Part shown: positions 27,482 through 37,443 of the stretch, in pieces | How the letters are laid out: each line of letters begins with the position of its first letter | Numbering within the stretch: the first letter of the stretch is position 1 | DNA from: Duganella sp. 1411 | GTDB lineage: Bacteria; Pseudomonadota; Gammaproteobacteria; Burkholderiales; Burkholderiaceae_D | DNA length: 64,000 nt | Assembly: GCF_017833525.1 (NCBI RefSeq) | Contig: NZ_JAFICD010000003.1 | Coordinates: forward strand, 372,001-436,000 | Direction: 5' to 3' | Position numbers and translations under genes: made by a program | The notes under the pieces: generated by a model | What the model was told of the DNA's origin: nothing | Databases searched by the model: none | Seen by the model: the letters and a program-made list of their open reading frames with translations, nothing else

Positions 27482-28090
27482 TTACATCGCCAGCGCTTTT
27501 TCCACCGCGCCGACCAGTTGCTTGTCGTCCGGTTTGACTTTGCTGCCGAAGTTATCCACAACCTTGCCGTTGCGGTCGATCAGGTACTTGTGGAAATTCC
27601 AGGCCGGCGCCTTGCCGGTCGCCTTGATCAGGTTGGCGAACAGCGGATTCGGCTCCTTGCCCGACACCACCGACTTGGCGAACATCGGGAACTTGACGCC
27701 GTAGGTGTTGTAGCAGAAATCGGCGATCTCCTTGCTGCTGCCGGGTTCCTGCTGGCCGAAGTCATTGGACGGGAAGCCCAGCACCACCAGCCCCTTGCTG
27801 CCGTACTTGGCGTACATCGCCTCCAGGCCCTCGTACTGGTTGGTGAAACCGCAGTACGACGCGGTATTGACCACCAAAATCACCTTGCCCGCATACTGGC
27901 ACAGGTCCTGCGGCGCCTCGTCCTGCAAACGCTTGAAGGTTTGCTTGAGGATGGCCGGGCAATTGGCCGGCGCCGCCGTCGCCGCCGGCGCGGTTCCCGC
28001 CGCGACGGCGGGGGCTTGCGCGAACGCGGACGCGCCCGCCAACAAGGTCAGCGAGGAAACTAAGCACAACTGGGCAATTGTCTTGGACAT
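27482..28090 (-). CDS. Glutathione peroxidase family protein (exported)
   Basis: A 202-residue thioredoxin-fold peroxidase with a signal peptide (MSKTIAQLCLVSSLTLLAGA). The active-site segment NTASYCGFTNQYEGLEAMY has cysteine in place of selenocysteine; the glutamine and tryptophan partners are in LGFPSNDFGQQEPGS and WNFHKYLID. Bacterial members often use thioredoxin rather than glutathione. The export signal and an Ala/Pro linker place it in the periplasm, where it would remove hydroperoxides. A CPAIL cysteine in the pre-domain is unusual. Confidence 0.87.
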   Translation of the reverse strand: MSKTIAQLCLVSSLTLLAGASAFAQAPAVAAGTAPAATAAPANCPAILKQTFKRLQDEAPQDLCQYAGKVILVVNTASYCGFTNQYEGLEAMYAKYGSKGLVVLGFPSNDFGQQEPGSSKEIADFCYNTYGVKFPMFAKSVVSGKEPNPLFANLIKATGKAPAWNFHKYLIDRNGKVVDNFGSKVKPDDKQLVGAVEKALAM

Positions 28091-28194
28091 GGTGGGGGCC
28101 GAAAAGAGTAAAAAAATCATTCTATGCCAAACCGCCGCAACTTGCCGGAAGGGCATGCGAAATCGCCATCACACGCATGCCCGGCCGCCTCCCG

Positions 28195-29649
28195 TTAAAT
28201 GCCTCCGAGGCAGATGTACTTCACCACCAGGTACTCGTCGATGCCGTGGCGCGAGCCCTCGCGCCCCAGGCCGGATTGCTTGACGCCGCCGAATGGCGCC
28301 ACCTCGTTGGAGATCAAGCCGGTGTTGACGCCGACCATGCCGCTTTCCAGCCCCTCGGCCACGCGCCAGATGCGGCCGATATCGCGCGAGTAGAAATAGC
28401 TGGCCAGGCCGAATTCGGTGTCGTTGGCCAGCGCGATGACTTCCTCGTCGGTCTTGAAGCGGAACAGCGGCGCCAGCGGCCCGAAGGTCTCCTCAGTGGC
28501 GACCATCATGTCGCTGTTGATGTCGGCGATGACGGTCGGCTGGAAGAAGCTGTGGCCCAGCGCGTGGCGCTTGCCGCCGGTGAGCAGACGCCCGCCCTTG
28601 GACAGCGCGTCGGCCACGTGCTGCTCGACTTTTTCGACGGCCTTCTCGTCGATCAGCGGGCCTTGCGTCACGCCTTCCTCGACGCCGTTGCCGACCTTGA
28701 GCTTTTCGACGGCGGCCACCAGTTTCTTGGCGAATTGTTCGTAGACGCCGTCCTGCACGTACAGGCGGTTGGCGCACACGCAGGTCTGGCCGGCGTTGCG
28801 GTACTTGGAGGCGATCGCGCCTTCGACGGCGGCATCGAGGTCGGCGTCGTCGAACACGATGAACGGGGCGTTGCCGCCCAATTCCAGCGACAGTTTTTTG
28901 ATCGTCGGCGCGCTCTGCTCCATCAGCAGCCGGCCGACGGCGGTCGAGCCGGTGAAGGTCAGCTTGCGCACGATGGGGTTGGACGTCATTTCGCCGCCGA
29001 TCTCCTTCGAGGAGCCGGTCAGCACGCTGAACACGCCGGGCGGCACGCCCGCGCGCCCGGCCAGCTCGGCCAGCGCCAGCGCGCAGTACGGCGTCGACTC
29101 GGCCGGCTTGAGCACCATCGGGCAGCCCGCCGCCAGCGCCGGGCCGGCCTTGCGGGTGATCATCGCGATCGGGAAGTTCCACGGCGTGATGGCGGCGCAC
29201 ACGCCGATCGGCTCCTTGGTCACCAGCAGGCGGCGGTCGGGCCACGGCGAGGCGAGCGTCTCGCCGGCCACGCGCTTGGCCTCCTCGCCGAACCATTCGA
29301 TGAACGAGGCGCCGTAGGCCACCTCGCCGCGCGACTCGGCCAGCGGCTTGCCCTGCTCGGCCGTCATCAGCAGCGCCAGGTCGTCGGTGTTTTCCAGGAT
29401 CAGGTCATTCCACTTGCGCAGGATGGCGGCGCGCTCCTTGGCGGTCTTCTTGCGCCAGGCCGGCCAGGCGGCGTTGGCGGCGTCGATGGCGCGTTTGGTT
29501 TCGGCCGCGCCCATCCGCGGCACGGTGCCGATTTGCTCGCCGGTGGCGGGATTGGTGACGGGATGGGTCTCGCCGTTGTCGGCGTCGCTCCAGGCGCCGT
29601 TGATGTAGGCTTGCTGGCGCAGCAGTGTGGGGTCTTTCAGTTGCAGCAT
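28195..29649 (-). CDS. gabD: Succinate-semialdehyde dehydrogenase (NADP)
   Basis: A 484-residue aldehyde dehydrogenase that oxidises succinate semialdehyde to succinate in 4-aminobutyrate breakdown. The cofactor region reads PWNFPIAMITRKAGPALAAG and TFTGSTAVGRLL; the general-base glutamate is in LSLELGGNAPF; the catalytic cysteine is in YRNAGQTCVCANR. The CVCAN sequence and the motif SRHGIDEYLVVKYICLG at the end are typical of GabD. GGAGG just upstream of ATG 29649 confirms the start. No gabT or permease is adjacent, so GabD here could also serve other semialdehydes. Confidence 0.9.
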   Translation of the reverse strand: MLQLKDPTLLRQQAYINGAWSDADNGETHPVTNPATGEQIGTVPRMGAAETKRAIDAANAAWPAWRKKTAKERAAILRKWNDLILENTDDLALLMTAEQGKPLAESRGEVAYGASFIEWFGEEAKRVAGETLASPWPDRRLLVTKEPIGVCAAITPWNFPIAMITRKAGPALAAGCPMVLKPAESTPYCALALAELAGRAGVPPGVFSVLTGSSKEIGGEMTSNPIVRKLTFTGSTAVGRLLMEQSAPTIKKLSLELGGNAPFIVFDDADLDAAVEGAIASKYRNAGQTCVCANRLYVQDGVYEQFAKKLVAAVEKLKVGNGVEEGVTQGPLIDEKAVEKVEQHVADALSKGGRLLTGGKRHALGHSFFQPTVIADINSDMMVATEETFGPLAPLFRFKTDEEVIALANDTEFGLASYFYSRDIGRIWRVAEGLESGMVGVNTGLISNEVAPFGGVKQSGLGREGSRHGIDEYLVVKYICLGGI

Positions 29650-29748
29650 CGGTAGTCCTCCTCATGCAAAGAATGACTATGCCACAGACCGCGCGGACGT
29701 GTTTTTACGTTGACGGGATGCCGGATTTTAACCCGCACCGCGGTCGAA

Positions 29749-29776
29749 GGGGTCGTACCCCGCTGGGTACGACCCC
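29749..29776. repeat. Palindrome, family 2 (GGGGTCGTACCC type)
   Basis: Twelve-base arms GGGGTCGTACCC and GGGTACGACCCC enclose CGCT. It lies 25 bases beyond the PPK2 stop and resembles the copies at 51642 and 57143. Confidence 0.85.
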
Positions 29777-29801
29777 GGTGGCCGGGGTGAGGGTTTGCCT
29801 C

Positions 29802-30644
<843 letters not shown>

Positions 30645-30679: not shown

Positions 30680-32302
30680 TCATTTCGCCGCCAGTTCGGC
30701 TGCGCGGTAGCCCCACCATGCCGCCTCCTCGAACACCGAGAAGCCCGACAGGTCGGCGTGCGCGAACAAAATCGGGCCGTCGGCCTCGCGCAAGGCCTTC
30801 ATGCCGGCGTTGGCGCGGAAGTTGGGCAATGGCGCCGCCATCGCGTGGCCGCGCAAGGTGATGTCGACCCGCTCGACGCAGGACGCGAACTGCGATCCGT
30901 ACGCCGTTTTGAGGTCTGCGCTGGCCAGCGCCAGCAGTTCCTCCGGCTTGGCGTCCATCATCCAGTGGCGGGCGCTGGCCGGCTTGCGGTCCGATAGCGC
31001 GACGTAGGCGCTGAAGACGGTCTTTTCCGGCGGCCGCACGCGGATATCCTGATGGGTGGAGACGACAAAGCCCAATCCCGGCTCGCTGTAGACGACGTTA
31101 TCCCACGACAGCGGCGGCGAGTGCGGTCCCTCCTGCAGCTCGCGCGGAAAACGCTTGAGCAGGAAGTTGGCGACCATCCACGGCGCATATTCGGGGATAT
31201 GCCTGGCCGGATCGAAACCGTAGGCGGCGATGTTATCCACAACCCGCGCGGCGACATACACCGGCATCGCGCAGATAGCCTTGCGCGCCCGCACCAGATA
31301 GGTCGACGGCTTGCCGCCTTCGAGCTTGAAGCACAAGGCCTCGACGCCATCCGCCGTCTTCTTCAGCGACACCACGGTGCCGGCCATGCGCTTGACGCCC
31401 GAGGCGCGCTCGATGCCCGTGGCCAGCGGTTGCAGGCCGCCCGGCCATGTCAGCCAGGCGCCGTTGCCGGCGTTGGCGGCCTGTCCCCAGCGGCTGCAGT
31501 AGTAATGCAGGCCGGCCCAAGCCGAAACCTTATCGTAGCGCGTGCCGTAGTCGTCGCGACAGCAGTAGTTCAGATACCAGTGCAGGGTCGGCGAGCGGTA
31601 GCCGCTTTGCTCCAGCCATTGCTTGAGCGTGATGCGGTCCAGCGCCTGCCACTGCGGGTCCTCCGACGACATCACCGTCGGGAAGACGAACACGCGCCGG
31701 CCGTCGGCGCCGTGCGTCCGCCGCAAGCGCTCCACTTCGGCGAAGAAGCGCGTGTGCTCGTCGATCTCCCATTGCGGCACGCCCTCGGTCGGCATGAAGC
31801 CCTCCTGCCACTGGCCCTTGTACAGCAGCCGTTCCTCCGGCGCGTGCAGGATGAAGCGCTCGTCGTAATAGGGCTTCTCGCCCATCGGGTCTTTTTGGAT
31901 GATGCCCAGATCGGCCAGGATCTCGCGCACGTGCACCGACTCCGGCGACGGCAGCGGCAGGTAGTGGGCGCCGGTCGGATATTCCAGGTCGCCGAACGCG
32001 CCGCCGGCGGCGTTGCCGTGCGGTTGCGGGCCGTCGATCATCAGCATGTCGGCCTTGCCGAGCTTTTTGAGCTTCCACGCGGCGGTCAGCCCGGCGATGC
32101 CGGAACCGAGGATGGCGACATCGGTGTGGACAACTTGCGACGGCGGTGGCAACGCGCGGCGGTCGCGCAGAAAGTGGCCTTCGTCGCGGCCCGGGTAATG
32201 CACCGCCGGCGTGATCTCCTGCCAGCGCTGGAAGCCGGCCACGCTACCCGCCGCCGCCAGGCCGGTGGCGCCGGCCCACACGAGAAAGGATCGGCGCAGC
32301 AT
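30680..32302 (-). CDS. FAD-dependent amine-oxidase-like oxidoreductase with Tat-type signal
   Basis: A 540-residue flavoprotein. The N-terminus MLRRSFLVWAGATGLAAAG has a twin-arginine-like RRxFL motif followed by a hydrophobic stretch, so export or membrane anchoring in folded form is likely. The FAD motif VAILGSGIAGLTAAWKL is near residue 60, and the C-terminal ILFAHADLSGFSVFEEAAWW matches flavin amine-oxidase relatives. The start ATG shares one base with the stop of the spermidine-synthase-like gene (TGATG), giving strong coupling. Together with SpeD and the aminopropyltransferase it suggests production and oxidation of a polyamine; the substrate is an inference. Confidence 0.78.
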   Translation of the reverse strand: MLRRSFLVWAGATGLAAAGSVAGFQRWQEITPAVHYPGRDEGHFLRDRRALPPPSQVVHTDVAILGSGIAGLTAAWKLKKLGKADMLMIDGPQPHGNAAGGAFGDLEYPTGAHYLPLPSPESVHVREILADLGIIQKDPMGEKPYYDERFILHAPEERLLYKGQWQEGFMPTEGVPQWEIDEHTRFFAEVERLRRTHGADGRRVFVFPTVMSSEDPQWQALDRITLKQWLEQSGYRSPTLHWYLNYCCRDDYGTRYDKVSAWAGLHYYCSRWGQAANAGNGAWLTWPGGLQPLATGIERASGVKRMAGTVVSLKKTADGVEALCFKLEGGKPSTYLVRARKAICAMPVYVAARVVDNIAAYGFDPARHIPEYAPWMVANFLLKRFPRELQEGPHSPPLSWDNVVYSEPGLGFVVSTHQDIRVRPPEKTVFSAYVALSDRKPASARHWMMDAKPEELLALASADLKTAYGSQFASCVERVDITLRGHAMAAPLPNFRANAGMKALREADGPILFAHADLSGFSVFEEAAWWGYRAAELAAK

Positions 32303-33813
32303 CAGCGTATCACCCGGCGCCAGTCCTGCTCGAATTCGTGCACCAGCGACTGCGTGTTGAGCCGGTTCGGCGCCATCGGCAGCGGCTTCATATCCGGCGG
32401 GAAGATGAACATCTCGCGCGTGGTGTCGGCGTTCAGGTAGCGCATCGGCAAACGGTACTCGGCGGGCGGCTGGTACTGCGCCTGGGGCGTGGCGAGAATG
32501 AAGCCCCATTCGCCGAACGACGGCACGTAAGCGTGGTACGGATAGGTCTTCATGCCGACTTCGCGCAAGGTGGCGTCGATGGTCCAGTAAGCGTGCGGCG
32601 CGAAGAACGGCGACGTCGATTGCACCGTCATCAAACCGTTGGCCGCCAGGTGTTTGCGCACCATGCCGTAGAACGGCACCGAATACAGCTTGCCCAGCGC
32701 GAAACTGGATGGATCGGGGAAGTCGACGATGATGGCGTCGAACATGTCGTCGTTATCGCGCAGCCACAGGGCCGCGTCGGCATTGACGACTTTCACCCGC
32801 TTGTCGGTCAGCGAGCCGCCATTGAGCTTGACCAGCTCTTCGCGCCTGGCGAAGGCGCCCGTCATCGCCGGGTCCAGATCAACCAGGGTGACATGCTCGA
32901 TGTTCGGATAGCGCAGTATCTCGCGCAGCGCCAGGCCGTCGCCGCCGCCCAGCACCAGCACCCGCTTCGCCCACGGCAATGGCTGCAGCACCGGATGCAC
33001 CAGCGCCTCGTGGTAGCGGTACTCGTCGCGCGACGAGAACTGCAGGTTGCCGTTGATGTACAGGCGCAGATCGTCCTTCCAGCGCGTGACGACCAGCCGC
33101 TGGTAGGGCGTGGTCGTGGCGAAGACGATTTCGTCGCCGAACAGGCCATGCTCGCCCCAGTAGGTGAGCTTGTCGGCGGAGGCGAAGCCGCACACCAGCA
33201 CGAACATCACGGCCGAGGCGCGCAGCATGCGGCCGGTGACGTTCTTGAGCTCTGTGCGGAAGGTCCGAATTGTCCACAGGGCGACGCCGACGTTGAGCAT
33301 CCCGAACAGAAAACCGGTGCGCACCAGGCCCAGGGTCGGCGCCAGCACCAGCGGGAACAGCAGCGACACCGCCAGCGCGCCCAGGTAATCGAAGGTCAGC
33401 ACCTTGCTGACGATTTCGCTGAAACCCGTCTGGCGCGCGTTCAGCGCGCGCATCACCAGCGGCACCTCCATGCCGACAAAGGCGCCGATCAAAAACACCA
33501 TCACGTACAGCATCGTGCGGAACGGCGCCGCCATCCACGAAAAAGTCAGGAACAGGATCGCGGCCGAAATGCCGCCGACCAGGCCGACCGCCAGTTCGAT
33601 GTCGACAAAGCGCGCCAGCACATCCTCGTCGAGCACATATTTGGAGAGGTGGGCGCCGACGCCCATGGCGAACAGGTAGCAGCCGATCACGGTGGAGAAC
33701 TGCAGGATCGAATCGCCCAGCAGATAGCTGGACAGGGCGCCGGCGATTAATTCGTAAGCAAGGCCACATGAAGCGACCACAAACACGGACAATATAAGAA
33801 TCTTTTTGTTCAT
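32302..33813 (-). CDS. Membrane-fused spermidine-synthase-like aminopropyltransferase
   Basis: A 503-residue protein. The first 220 residues hold about seven transmembrane helices (for example ILILSVFVVASCGLAYELIA and MLYVMVFLIGAFVGMEVPLV), followed by a soluble spermidine-synthase fold. In it, VLVLGGGDGLALREILRYP is the decarboxylated-AdoMet loop and DAIIVDFPDPSSFALGKLYS holds the catalytic aspartate region. Aminopropyltransferases add aminopropyl groups to amines; fusion to a membrane domain implies an amphipathic or membrane-bound acceptor. ATG at 33813 was chosen over a GTG 15 bases upstream. It is divergent from the DUF350-SPFH-DUF4178-SpeD operon with 79 bases between. Confidence 0.85.
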   Translation of the reverse strand: MNKKILILSVFVVASCGLAYELIAGALSSYLLGDSILQFSTVIGCYLFAMGVGAHLSKYVLDEDVLARFVDIELAVGLVGGISAAILFLTFSWMAAPFRTMLYVMVFLIGAFVGMEVPLVMRALNARQTGFSEIVSKVLTFDYLGALAVSLLFPLVLAPTLGLVRTGFLFGMLNVGVALWTIRTFRTELKNVTGRMLRASAVMFVLVCGFASADKLTYWGEHGLFGDEIVFATTTPYQRLVVTRWKDDLRLYINGNLQFSSRDEYRYHEALVHPVLQPLPWAKRVLVLGGGDGLALREILRYPNIEHVTLVDLDPAMTGAFARREELVKLNGGSLTDKRVKVVNADAALWLRDNDDMFDAIIVDFPDPSSFALGKLYSVPFYGMVRKHLAANGLMTVQSTSPFFAPHAYWTIDATLREVGMKTYPYHAYVPSFGEWGFILATPQAQYQPPAEYRLPMRYLNADTTREMFIFPPDMKPLPMAPNRLNTQSLVHEFEQDWRRVIR

Positions 33814-33892
33814 TTGGCTCTTTTGCACTAATATGCTTCAGCGTTAGTATCTTAACCACAGGTTCAACACTTTACCCCACTGAGAGCGCGCC

Positions 33893-34279
33893 GTGCCCGC
33901 CATCCTAAACTATCTGATTCACCTTTTATTGGCCGCCTTGCTGCTGGCGGCGTTTTTTGTCGTCTACACGCGCGTGACGCCGGCCAACGAGGTGCTGCTG
34001 ATCCGCCAGGGCAACCAGGCGGCCGCGCTATCGCTCGGCGGTGCGCTGATCGGTTTTTCAATCACCGTCGGTTCGGCGCTGATGCATACTGCGAACTACC
34101 AGGAGTTCTTCGCCTGGGCCTTCGGCGCGATGCTGGTGCAGGTGCTGGCGTATGCCATCACCACGCGGGTGCTGAACATGTCGAAGGACCAGATCGAGGG
34201 GAACAACGGCGCGTTCGGCGGCCTGCTGGGCGCGATCTCCATTTCCATCGGCGTTATCAACGGCGCCTGCATTTCCTAA
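33893..34279 (+). CDS. DUF350 membrane protein (YjfL-like)
   Basis: A 128-residue inner-membrane protein with four predicted helices in two similar halves, the DUF350/YjfL pattern. The first helix is LNYLIHLLLAALLLAAFFVV, and the middle has the signature ALSLGGALIGFSITVGSAL. Family members occur next to SPFH and polyamine genes in several phyla and have no established activity, although a channel or sensor role has been suggested. GTG at 33893 is the start, with a weak GAGAG upstream. First gene of the rightward operon. Confidence 0.8.
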   Translation: MPAILNYLIHLLLAALLLAAFFVVYTRVTPANEVLLIRQGNQAAALSLGGALIGFSITVGSALMHTANYQEFFAWAFGAMLVQVLAYAITTRVLNMSKDQIEGNNGAFGGLLGAISISIGVINGACIS

Positions 34280-34316
34280 TTCAAGTGTAGTTTTACCCAA
34301 CAGAGCGAGGACCATC

Positions 34317-35372
34317 ATGGGCATCGGCAGCTTTATCAAGAAGCAGTTTATCGACGTACTGCAGTGGAACGAGGAAGTCGACGGCGTACTGGCCTGGCGC
34401 TATCCGATGCAGGATTTCGAGATCCAGAACGGCGGCGTGCTGGTGGTGCGCGAGTCGCAGATGGCGGTGTTCGTCAACGAGGGCCAGGTCGCCGACGTCT
34501 TCGGCCCCGGCACCCACAAGCTGACCACGCAGACCCTGCCCGTGCTGACCAACCTGAAAAACTGGGACAAGCTGTTCGATTCGCCGTTCAAGTCGGACGT
34601 CTATTTTTTCAGCACCCGGGTGCAGACCGGCCGCAAATGGGGCACGCAGCAACCGATCACGATCCGCGACAAGGACTTCGACATGGTGCGCGTGCGCGCC
34701 TTCGGCATGTATTCGTACCGGGTGGCCGATCCGCGCCTGTTCTTCAAGGAGATCAGCGGCACGCGCGAAGCCTACACCCGCGACGAGGTCGAGGACCAGC
34801 TGCGCGGCATCCTGATGGCGACCATGGCCAGTTCGCTGGGCGGCGCGCAGGTGCCCTTCCTCGACATGGCGGCCAACCAGGCGCTGATGGCGCAGCAGGT
34901 CAAGGGCGATCTGACGACCGCGTTCGGCCGCTACGGCATCGGCCTCGATGAATTCAACGTCGCCAGCGTCAGCCTGCCGGAGGAGCTGCAGGCCGCGCTC
35001 GACGAGCGCATCTCCGCCGGCATGAAGGGCGGCATGAGCGCCGACAAAATGGCCGGCTTCACCCGCTACCAGGTGGCCAGCGCGATTCCGATGGCGGCGT
35101 CGAACGAAGGCGGCCTGGCCGGCATCGGCGCCGGCCTGGGCGCCGGCATGACGGTCGGCCAGGTGATGGGACAGGCCTTGGGCCAGACCATGGGCGGCGC
35201 GCCAGCGGCCGCGCCGGCGGCACCGGCCGCGCCGGCGGCACCGGCCGCGCCGGCCGAGGATTCCATCGAAGCGCGTTTGGAAAAGCTCAAAGGACTGCTC
35301 GACAAGGGCCTGATCTCGGCCGCCGACTACGACAGCACCAAGGCCGAACTGCTGAAAAAACTGATCGGCTGA
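34317..35372 (+). CDS. SPFH-domain protein with C-terminal SHOCT domain
   Basis: A 351-residue protein. Residues 1-210 form an SPFH/band-7-like domain of the virion-core-protein type (VLAWRYPMQDFEIQNGGVLV, VRESQMAVFVNEGQVADVFG). A glycine-rich stretch (GAGLGAGMTVGQVMGQALG) leads to an Ala-Pro repeat linker of about 20 residues. The last 35 residues form a SHOCT oligomerisation motif (EARLEKLKGLLDKGLISAAD). SPFH proteins make membrane-surface scaffolds. It has no transmembrane helix of its own, so it may dock onto the DUF350 or DUF4178 neighbour. The next gene starts nine bases later. Confidence 0.85.
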   Translation: MGIGSFIKKQFIDVLQWNEEVDGVLAWRYPMQDFEIQNGGVLVVRESQMAVFVNEGQVADVFGPGTHKLTTQTLPVLTNLKNWDKLFDSPFKSDVYFFSTRVQTGRKWGTQQPITIRDKDFDMVRVRAFGMYSYRVADPRLFFKEISGTREAYTRDEVEDQLRGILMATMASSLGGAQVPFLDMAANQALMAQQVKGDLTTAFGRYGIGLDEFNVASVSLPEELQAALDERISAGMKGGMSADKMAGFTRYQVASAIPMAASNEGGLAGIGAGLGAGMTVGQVMGQALGQTMGGAPAAAPAAPAAPAAPAAPAEDSIEARLEKLKGLLDKGLISAADYDSTKAELLKKLIG

Positions 35373-35381
35373 TAAGGACAC

Positions 35382-36875
35382 ATGCAAATCGTTTCCTGTC
35401 CCAGCTGCGGCGCGGAGGTCAAATTCCGCTCGCACGCCTCGGTCATGGCCGTGTGCGAATTCTGCGGCACCAGCGTGCTCAAAGACGCCGACTCGGTCAA
35501 GGACCTGGGCAAGATGTCCTCGGTGCTGGAGGACTATTCGCCGATCCAGATCGGCGCCTCCGGCGTTCTCGGTAAGCGGCAGTTCAACGTCGTCGGCCGC
35601 ATCCAGCTGCGCTATTCGGCCGGCATGTGGAACGAGTGGTATCTGCTGTTCGACGACGGCGCCACTTCTTGGCTGGGCGATTCGTCCGGCATCTACACGA
35701 TCACCGCCGAATACAAGGGCAACGGCATCACGCCCCACGAAATCAACGTACCGGAGTTCGAACGGCTGCGGCCCGGCGCCAGCTACGGCATCAACGGTGC
35801 GCCTTACATCGCCGCCGAGGTCCGCGTGGCCGATTGCATCGGCGGCCAGGGCGAGCTGCCGTTCAAGGTCGGCGAGGGCTATCAGAGCAAGGTCGCCGAT
35901 TTCCGGCGCGGCGCGGAATTCATCACCCTCGATTATTCGGACTCGCCGCGCCCTGTGATTTATACCGGCGCCGCCGTCACGCTCGACAGCCTGCGCATGC
36001 AGCTGCTGCGCGACGACGACGCGATCCAGCGTTCGGCGCGCCGCTATCGGGGCAAGCTCGATGCGCTCGATTGCCCTTCGTGCGGCAGCGCCATCAAATA
36101 TCTGCCGGGCGTGACGACCACGCTGGTCTGCCCCGCGTGCCAGACCAAAATCGACGCGGCCAGCCCGGAGGCGATCGTGCTGGCAGCGGGCGAACGGGTG
36201 ACCGCCGCGCGGCCGACCATCGATCTCGGCGCCACCGCCAACATCAACAAACAGGACTTCACCATCATCGGCATGATGCGGCGCATGGACGACGAGGGCA
36301 CCGAGTGGACCGAGTACCTGATGTACGGCGCGCGCGCCGGCTTCTCGTGGCTGGTGGAGACCGACGAGGGCTGGTCCGGCGCGACCGTGATGTCGGAGTG
36401 GCCGGTCGTGTACGCGCCGGGGCAGCAAAGCGTGGCCGTGGAAAACGCGCAGTACGAGCGCCTGTACGACTACGGCTCGCATGTCACCTTCGCCGCCGGC
36501 GCCTTCAACTGGCGCGTGGCCGTCGGCGACCGCACCCACGTCGAGGAATTCCAGGCCGGCCAGATCCGGCTGGCGTGCGAGACCAGCGACCAGGAAATGA
36601 CATGGTCGCGCTCCGCGCCGGTGGCCGTGGACCAGCTGAAGGCCTGGTTCGGCGAGCAATTCCACGGCCGGGCGACGCCGGCGAAGACGGCGGATAACAA
36701 ACCGTTCGTCAACAACCGCTACCGCAACGCCGCCAAGTACATCATCGGATTCATGCTGGTGATCAACGCGATACCGCTGCTGACGAATTTTTCCGGCACG
36801 TGGTTTATGAATGCGATCGGCGCGCTGGCGATCTACCTGCCGGCGACTTTTTTAGATAGCAACGACAAATCATGA
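35382..36875 (+). CDS. Two zinc ribbons with two DUF4178 domains and C-terminal membrane helices
   Basis: A 497-residue protein with an internal duplication. A zinc ribbon (CPSCGAEVKFRSHASVMAVC then EFCG) opens residues 1-30; a DUF4178 beta-domain (about 55-200) follows with GKRQFNVVGRIQLRYSAGMW and EWYLLFDDGATSWLGDSSG. A second ribbon (CPSCGSAIKY then CPACQ) is at about 225-260 and a second DUF4178 (about 285-430) has EWTEYLMYGARAGFSWLVE. Two hydrophobic helices close the chain (YIIGFMLVINAIPLLTNF). DUF4178 has no known activity. The stop overlaps the ATG of the small lipoprotein by four bases. Confidence 0.85.
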   Translation: MQIVSCPSCGAEVKFRSHASVMAVCEFCGTSVLKDADSVKDLGKMSSVLEDYSPIQIGASGVLGKRQFNVVGRIQLRYSAGMWNEWYLLFDDGATSWLGDSSGIYTITAEYKGNGITPHEINVPEFERLRPGASYGINGAPYIAAEVRVADCIGGQGELPFKVGEGYQSKVADFRRGAEFITLDYSDSPRPVIYTGAAVTLDSLRMQLLRDDDAIQRSARRYRGKLDALDCPSCGSAIKYLPGVTTTLVCPACQTKIDAASPEAIVLAAGERVTAARPTIDLGATANINKQDFTIIGMMRRMDDEGTEWTEYLMYGARAGFSWLVETDEGWSGATVMSEWPVVYAPGQQSVAVENAQYERLYDYGSHVTFAAGAFNWRVAVGDRTHVEEFQAGQIRLACETSDQEMTWSRSAPVAVDQLKAWFGEQFHGRATPAKTADNKPFVNNRYRNAAKYIIGFMLVINAIPLLTNFSGTWFMNAIGALAIYLPATFLDSNDKS

Positions 36876-37045
36876 CGAAATTTTTCATTTATGCGCTCGT
36901 CGTCACCGTCCTCACCTCCTGCAACAGCTGGACGCGGCTCGGCGGCGGTGGCGGCAGCGGGTACCGGGGCAGCACCTGGAGTTCGCACACGGGCGGCGGC
37001 GGCGGCAGTTTTGGCGGCGGCTCCGGCGGCGGGGGCCACAAGTGA
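36872..37045 (+). CDS. Small glycine-rich lipoprotein
   Basis: A 57-residue protein. The N-terminus MTKFFIYALVVTVLTSC is a lipoprotein signal with cysteine 17 preceded by LTS, an acceptable lipobox. The mature part is about 40 residues and dominated by glycine runs with serine, tyrosine, tryptophan and histidine, ending GGGGHK. It starts inside the stop of the DUF4178 gene (ATGA), and the GTG of speD starts inside its own stop (GTGA), so it is almost certainly translated. A lipid-anchored flexible peptide in a polyamine operon is unusual; it could be a substrate or membrane anchor. Confidence 0.75.
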   Translation: MTKFFIYALVVTVLTSCNSWTRLGGGGGSGYRGSTWSSHTGGGGGSFGGGSGGGGHK

Positions 37046-37443
37046 AGCGCGAACCGCTACCGGGCGCGACTGTGACGCCGCCGGCGGTCCACCAGCCGGC
37101 CGGCCTCCACCTGCTGGCCGACCTGAACGGCATCGATGCTGAAAAATTATGCAATGGCGAGGCGTTGGAGCGCTTGCTGCGGGCGGCGGCCGAGGCGGCG
37201 CATGCCCATGTTTTGCACAGCCACTTTCACGGATTTGGCGAAGGCCAGGGCGTGACCGGGGTGGTGTTGCTGGCCGAATCGCATATCTCGATCCACACCT
37301 GGCCGGAGTGCGGCTTTGCCGCGGCCGACATCTTCATGTGCGGCAGCGCGCAGCCTGAGTTAGCGCTCACCATCATCGAAAGCGCGTTGAACCCTGCCTC
37401 CCGCGAGATCAAGACGATCCGGCGCGCGCCGCCCGGGTACTGA
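37042..37443 (+). CDS. speD: S-adenosylmethionine decarboxylase (SpeD, short prokaryotic type)
   Basis: A 133-residue proenzyme that self-cleaves to give a pyruvoyl cofactor and then decarboxylates AdoMet, supplying the aminopropyl donor. The cleavage site is LLAESHISIHTWPE; the bond between Glu79 and Ser80 yields the pyruvoyl group, with His85 and Cys100 (DIFMCG) as expected partners. GTG at 37042 overlaps the TGA of the lipoprotein gene. The N-terminus carries a Pro/Ala-rich extension of about 20 residues. It ends the rightward operon; the matching aminopropyltransferase is in the divergent operon. Confidence 0.9.
   Translation: MKREPLPGATVTPPAVHQPAGLHLLADLNGIDAEKLCNGEALERLLRAAAEAAHAHVLHSHFHGFGEGQGVTGVVLLAESHISIHTWPECGFAAADIFMCGSAQPELALTIIESALNPASREIKTIRRAPPGY

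Follow-up and report, generated by a model that had tools for sequence, protein, structure and literature searches.

Seven genes in two divergent operons lie at positions 30680 to 37443 of a 64,000-nucleotide stretch of DNA from Duganella sp. 1411 (this whole stretch is referred to below as the window), among them the genes for a membrane-fused aminopropyltransferase (TM-SpeE), for the S-adenosylmethionine (AdoMet) decarboxylase SpeD, and for a small membrane-anchored protein with a glycine- and serine-rich tail. We propose, with a probability of roughly 0.55, that this cluster is a protein-modification system in which TM-SpeE aminopropylates the C-terminal lysine of the co-encoded anchored tail, and in which the partner proteins serve in assembly and processing. 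The acceptor loop of TM-SpeE is changed, lysine-ended anchored tails are found in 31/31 genomes with this enzyme, and these two results therefore point to a protein acceptor.

In the proposed mechanism, SpeD would make decarboxylated AdoMet (dcAdoMet), and TM-SpeE would transfer its aminopropyl group to the side-chain amine of the terminal lysine, whose side chain, like putrescine, is an aminoalkyl chain. The product would be an N6-(3-aminopropyl)lysine end, here on a protein of 57 amino acids (aa) ending GGGGHK. The flavoenzyme of the cluster, which carries a signal for twin-arginine translocation (Tat), may next act on the new amine, and the DUF350 protein, the SPFH scaffold, whose place PspA takes in sister operons, and the DUF4178 protein would assemble the complex at the membrane. 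We infer the terminal lysine as acceptor, the product, the oxidation step and the side of the membrane from sequence; a role in envelope stress would be a guess. If the proposal is true, bacteria have assembled a system for lysine aminopropylation out of polyamine enzymes, and a biochemical output can be assigned to the SPFH/PspA membrane operons. It also gives a candidate acceptor to an enzyme of 31/299 sampled genomes, and weighing a 57-aa protein would be an inexpensive test of it.

TM-SpeE and its lysine-ended companion

TM-SpeE (32302-33828, minus strand, 508 aa) consists of an N-terminal membrane domain and an aminopropyltransferase domain (PF01564, E 1.3e-36), and scores above the family cutoff of the polyamine aminopropyltransferase model NF002956 (685.6 bits, cutoff 472). 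In its structural model, with a predicted local distance difference test score (pLDDT) of 90.4, a helical part precedes a domain with the aminopropyltransferase fold (1uir, E 1.4e-16). We compared the active sites of 30 TM-SpeE rows with those of 17 canonical SpeE proteins, using E. coli SpeE numbering. Residues Q33, Y63, D88, D158 and D161, which we take to be donor and catalytic positions of the E. coli enzyme, are kept in 30/30 TM-SpeE; three of them, Y63, D158 and D161, presumably contact the attacking amine. The acceptor-loop residue Y226 is Phe in every TM-SpeE row and Tyr in 17/17 canonical enzymes, and T160 is replaced by Pro in 30/30. Judged from this alignment, TM-SpeE is a class that departs from ordinary spermidine synthases at class-wide acceptor-loop positions. 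A seventh hydrophobic segment was found in all 30 rows, with loops on the N-terminal side richer in Lys/Arg; from the seven segments and the loop charge the catalytic domain is predicted to lie outside the cytoplasm, a prediction that is weak because the compared loops differ greatly in length.

The proposed acceptor is encoded between the DUF4178 and SpeD genes (36872-37045, plus strand) and has a membrane segment followed by the Gly/Ser-rich tail; it has no Pfam match of its own, the family scan having read another frame of this stretch. Relatives were obtained by a scan with the DUF4178 protein, from which the best 80 of 133 loci were taken, mostly from Oxalobacteraceae and Cupriavidus; genes in them were picked profile-first, and length-based picking of open reading frames (ORFs) chose spurious genes in this high-GC DNA. 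The final two residues of the tail are His-Lys in 79/79 scored loci (73/73 distinct sequences), with terminal lysine codons AAG in 51 and AAA in 28, and most inner tail positions are variable. A lipobox-like Cys is present in only 6 of the 79 small-gene loci, a count that included one wrong ORF pick (L054), so that the "Gly-rich lipoprotein" of an earlier note on this DNA is not conserved as a lipoprotein. A Uliginosibacterium locus (L085:9965-11700), outside the 79 scored loci as no SpeD was found there, holds DUF4178 together with a His-Lys-ended tail protein.

The wider distribution was surveyed across 299 sampled genomes of the phylum, among which full-length TM-SpeE, counted as a match across the whole model at no less than 436 bits, with weaker fusions left out, occurs in 31. 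Each of these 31 genomes encodes a protein that ends in lysine and carries a membrane segment or an export segment; these carriers, which were hand-chosen, comprise 15 small proteins, 6 DUF4178 fusions, 9 lipoproteins or similar proteins (lipobox match in 8/9) and 1 large protein whose export is presumed. The tail appears in several settings: in distant operons small Lys-ended proteins adjoin TM-SpeE, in PspA/DUF2170 operons the tail is the end of a lipoprotein, and in five Burkholderiales loci and L132 there is no small gene and the tail is fused to the DUF4178 C-terminus. His-Lys ends accompany the FAD enzyme in 10/11 TM-SpeE genomes and other Lys ends do so in 0/20, a pattern that also follows taxonomy.

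The earlier note had suggested a search for co-occurrence of DUF350, DUF4178 and SpeD/TM-SpeE, and these families do keep company. DUF4178 was detected in 20/299 genomes, all 20 within the 31 with TM-SpeE (hypergeometric 1.2e-23, p-values here overstating independence because the sampled genomes are related). DUF350 was detected in 30/31 TM-SpeE genomes, in 27/31 at most 15 kb from TM-SpeE, and SpeD (PF02675) in 25/31, in some of these away from TM-SpeE. Among the 80 close relatives, the order and orientation of the six larger genes are identical in 74, so that the grouping is not due to chance and the neighbourhood on which the note relied is indeed conserved; of the remaining six loci, five (L044, L048, L055, L081 and L086) run into contig ends, and in the sixth, L085, DUF4178 is the only one of the six genes seen.

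A further comparison came from the E. coli proteins YgiC and YjfC, named peptide--spermidine ligase in RefSeq, whose partners YgiB and YjfM end in Gly-Gly. DUF1190, for which the Duganella genome gave no match, matched in 39 genomes, and the best 30 loci were scored: the ends are GG in 27, GS in 2, GT in 1 and Lys in none, and a YgiC-like gene lies within the short flank in 26/30. With Gly-Gly ends beside the ligase and Lys beside TM-SpeE, the end residue therefore fits the enzyme type, in that a ligase pairs with a Gly end and an aminopropyltransferase, expected to alkylate amines, pairs with a Lys end.

Controls and competing explanations

Lysine ends 80 of 1154 background ORFs. Because some carriers came from listings favouring Lys or Gly/Ser ends, we used a detector blind to the last residue, whose thresholds were fixed after tails had been seen; it covered 35/38 TM-SpeE loci (those with a SpeE centre) and 16/16 canonical SpeE loci. 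It returned 25 ORFs at the TM-SpeE loci, 24 ending in Lys and 1 in Asp, and zero ORFs at all 16 canonical loci. A prediction set down beforehand was borne out at an Ensifer locus, with a tail ...GPESGK, and in Gemmatirosa, which belongs to another phylum; the Gemmatirosa tail, ending ...RFRHGK, was seen only on reading the gap frames and is less Gly/Ser-rich than predicted. Four further plasmid loci have Lys at the tail end. No tail was seen at L172, which has a SpeE fragment, or L173, which has a short SpeE-like match. Membrane-SpeE fusions of a more distant kind occur in G001 and G084, where a SpeE-like frame has no cluster partner and no Lys-ended Gly/Ser tail nearby, which marks the limit of the family; a weaker fusion in G156 had no profile match on its short contig.

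The tail protein and TM-SpeE can also be read in other ways. TM-SpeE could make a free small polyamine at the membrane (spermidine, norspermidine or another aminopropylated diamine), with the FAD enzyme tuning it and the tail as a structural subunit. We consider this unlikely, even though TM-SpeE and SpeD belong to polyamine families, the presumed attacking-amine contacts Y63, D158 and D161 are kept, and putrescine and monoamine oxidases are matched by the profile of the FAD protein. To that extent the view of the earlier note, of a polyamine made or oxidised at the membrane, may still hold; what speaks against a free polyamine is the acceptor loop, changed in 30/30 TM-SpeE, and the Lys end in 31/31 genomes, which such a product leaves unexplained. 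Fusions of this kind are also reported, in Li 2019, to have made no spermidine and not to have complemented a speE mutant. It is likewise doubtful that the terminal lysine stays unmodified and is needed for binding, sorting or cleavage, for example because DUF4178 or a protease recognises it or because it touches lipid, with TM-SpeE acting elsewhere, for example on a lipid amine. Conservation by itself shows no chemistry, and the membrane part of TM-SpeE has charged residues, E26, E121, R127 and D147, that are invariant in the 30 rows and would suit a membrane substrate; L085, with tail and DUF4178 and no TM-SpeE within 21 kb, and the 6/31 TM-SpeE genomes without a SpeD match would also fit an unmodified lysine. 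However, the last residue tracks the enzyme, being Lys with TM-SpeE in 31/31 and Gly-Gly with the ligase in 27/30. Finally, the Lys end could hardly be a by-product of the overlap between the last codon and stop of the tail gene and the speD start: GTGA is found in the window and GTGA or ATGA at the stop in 62/79 loci, but such an overlap constrains the last codon base alone, is absent in 17/79 loci, and operons of other gene order still end in Lys.

Several points weigh against aminopropylation of the tail itself. The lipoprotein tails sit outside the cytoplasm and dcAdoMet is made inside; if tails are outside, the donor would have to be exported, or the modification would have to precede export of the tail. 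The fused tail of L132 comes after two apparent membrane segments. L085 combines DUF4178 and a His-Lys tail with neither TM-SpeE nor SpeD within 21 kb, and six of the 31 TM-SpeE genomes (G037, G169, G162, G057, G216 and G290) gave no PF02675 match. The blind detector had no match at 11/35 TM-SpeE loci, with a Lys match at 24, some tails entered through the biased listings mentioned above, and the sampled genomes share kinship. Lysine could also be kept for some other reason. One way of placing the reaction would be an extracytoplasmic pathway, in which dcAdoMet would cross the inner membrane by way of the membrane part of TM-SpeE (or of DUF350), an aminopropyltransferase domain facing the periplasm would build aminopropyl-lysine at the C-terminal Lys of anchored tails, and the Tat flavoenzyme would oxidise its tip to an aldehyde crosslinking envelope components; in this full form we regard the pathway as improbable.

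Gene layout, scaffolds and neighbourhood

All seven genes that the earlier note had described are present as ORFs on the strands it gave, and the three start/stop overlaps from which it argued for tight coupling are all seen: TGATG between the SpeE and FAD genes, ATGA between the DUF4178 and 57-aa genes, and GTGA between the 57-aa gene and SpeD. Its picture of a coupled membrane cluster of polyamine type, with SpeD as the likely donor enzyme, agrees with the family assignments and the conserved neighbourhood. SpeD (37042-37443, plus strand, 133 aa) is an AdoMet decarboxylase of class 1b type (PF02675, 118.9 bits; TIGR03330, 122.8 bits, cutoff 75.65), and its AESHISIHTWPE region matches structure 2iii. 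DUF350 and SpeD have one match apiece in the 7.6-Mb genome; besides TM-SpeE, the genome has three PF01564 matches at only 26 to 36 bits, and TM-SpeE is therefore the only strong SpeE partner of SpeD.

Leftward, TM-SpeE is followed by the FAD amine-oxidase-like protein (30680-32302, minus strand, 540 aa; NAD_binding_8, E 2.7e-7), whose start is most likely at 32302 rather than 32509. It has a Tat-like RRSF motif, both Arg of which are invariant in 31 aligned relatives. A profile of this protein hits two amine oxidase structures, 8p84 (monoamine oxidase, E 1.7e-11) and 2yg6 (putrescine oxidase, E 8e-9), mainly over the N-terminal FAD region. An intergenic region (33829-33892) separates the two divergent operons. 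The rightward operon opens with a DUF350 membrane protein (33893-34279, plus strand, 128 aa; PF03994, 102.6 bits) and an SPFH protein (34317-35372, plus strand, 351 aa; Band_7_1, PF13421), whose SHOCT-like end scores 26.3 bits, slightly below the SHOCT cutoff of 27. The third gene (35382-36875, plus strand, 497 aa) encodes a double DUF4178 protein (PF13785, 69.4 bits, two stretches) with C-terminal membrane helices and a zinc ribbon whose matches are below the Pfam cutoff. The model of this protein (pLDDT 81.7) is confident in parts and gave no clear match among solved structures (best Foldseek E 2.1e-3, probability 0.13; best VIA Z 4.8). No function was drawn from this model, nor from weak recurring triphosphate-tunnel matches at Z about 3. 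When solved structures were searched with the single sequences of DUF350, SPFH and DUF4178, and with the DUF4178 profile, the matches were weak or fell on zinc ribbons.

The scaffold appears to be exchangeable. Within 15 kb of TM-SpeE in the 31 genomes, SPFH was found in 9, PspA in 12, both in none and neither in 10 (Fisher p 0.005), and several of these ten carry a scaffold on another contig or elsewhere. The FAD protein, counted at a score of at least 580 bits, is local to TM-SpeE in 10/31 genomes and never stands alongside a local PspA. The exchange of SPFH and PspA and the distribution of the FAD protein agree with the operons described in the main text of Ravi 2024 (PMC11237479).

Other genes were seen at the edges of the system or inside related operons. 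Upstream in the window (27482-30644) lie glutathione peroxidase-like, GabD-like aldehyde dehydrogenase and PPK2-like genes, named by reading; GabD, PPK2 and glutathione peroxidase are present in 19, 20 and 20 of 65 long loci, therefore reflect the neighbourhood of close relatives, and were rejected as parts of the system. A DUF2617 protein is encoded in a TM-SpeE operon without SpeD (L134:7565-8128), where it might stand in for SpeD; as a general stand-in it was rejected, being present in only 2/31 TM-SpeE genomes, both without a SpeD match. In two Burkholderiales operons DUF350 and TM-SpeE are separated by a gene for a TonB-dependent receptor (L120:5139-7289 and L124:5662-7914), and in an Alteromonas plasmid operon SpeD and DUF4178 flank a gene annotated as 'toxic anion resistance protein' (L170:7539-8645). 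In gamma-type operons, a membrane protein of about 200 aa with no Pfam match lies between DUF350 and the Lys-ended small gene (L119:6743-7384), and is perhaps the Ctha_1186 protein of Ravi 2024.

Relation to known systems

The class of this cluster is known, and the acceptor hypothesis appears to be new. Clusters of AdoMet decarboxylase (AdoMetDC), an MFS-SpdSyn fusion and DUF350 are said to have been treated by Li 2019 (Biochem J), where the acceptor was reportedly thought not to be putrescine and none was named. The association of SpeD, membrane-fused SpeE (PRK03612) and DUF350 is common to those clusters and to ours, for which a Lys-ended tail is proposed as acceptor. Lysine side-chain amines with arms of this kind are found in eukaryotes, as in the hypusine of eIF5A, which bears a related arm. 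In diatom silaffins, lysine side-chain amines bear aminopropyl or related arms (PMC4557024). Silaffins and eIF5A carry these on internal lysines, whereas the lysine proposed here is bacterial and C-terminal, and the extracytoplasmic pathway would combine, in bacteria, counterparts of silaffin chemistry and of lysyl oxidase. Among the papers searched, none joins 'aminopropyltransferase' with 'C-terminal lysine', and an earlier proposal in Li 2019 or Pederick 2023 is possible.

The earlier note knew of no assigned function for the grouping, yet as an operon class it is already in print: the main text of Ravi 2024 (PMC11237479) describes operons in which TM-SpeE (with a 7TM part) is joined by DUF350, DUF4178 and PspA; a variant described there contains a band-7/SHOCT protein together with a polyamine oxidase and an AdoMet decarboxylase. 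Neither 'lysine' nor 'glycine-rich' appears in that main text, supplements and figures being outside this statement. TM-SpeE, DUF350 and DUF4178 are common to our cluster and to the CesT/Tir-PspA and band-7 polyamine operons of that text. A band-7 scaffold (Band_7_1, 253.6 bits) stands beside TM-SpeE, as in PSP-like band-7/PspA operons; PspA itself does not, the Duganella genome (G000) having no PF04012 match, and CesT is also absent from the cluster. The same text places the band-7 variant in the ATP-grasp group, so that this variant may not correspond exactly to our cluster. A family scan of the cluster genes, to which the search was confined, found no ATP-grasp ligase.

A functional parallel is with YgiB-YgiC and YjfM-YjfC, in which, as here, an exported Gly/Ser-rich tail lies beside an enzyme that joins, or in our case would join, a polyamine group to peptides. 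The YjfM-YjfC set shares further families with such operons, DUF350 through YjfL and PspA through YjfJ. The two systems differ in their chemistry, since in YgiB-YgiC and YjfM-YjfC a ligase joins spermidine to a peptide and the tails end in Gly-Gly, whereas here the enzyme is an aminopropyltransferase and the tail ends in His-Lys.

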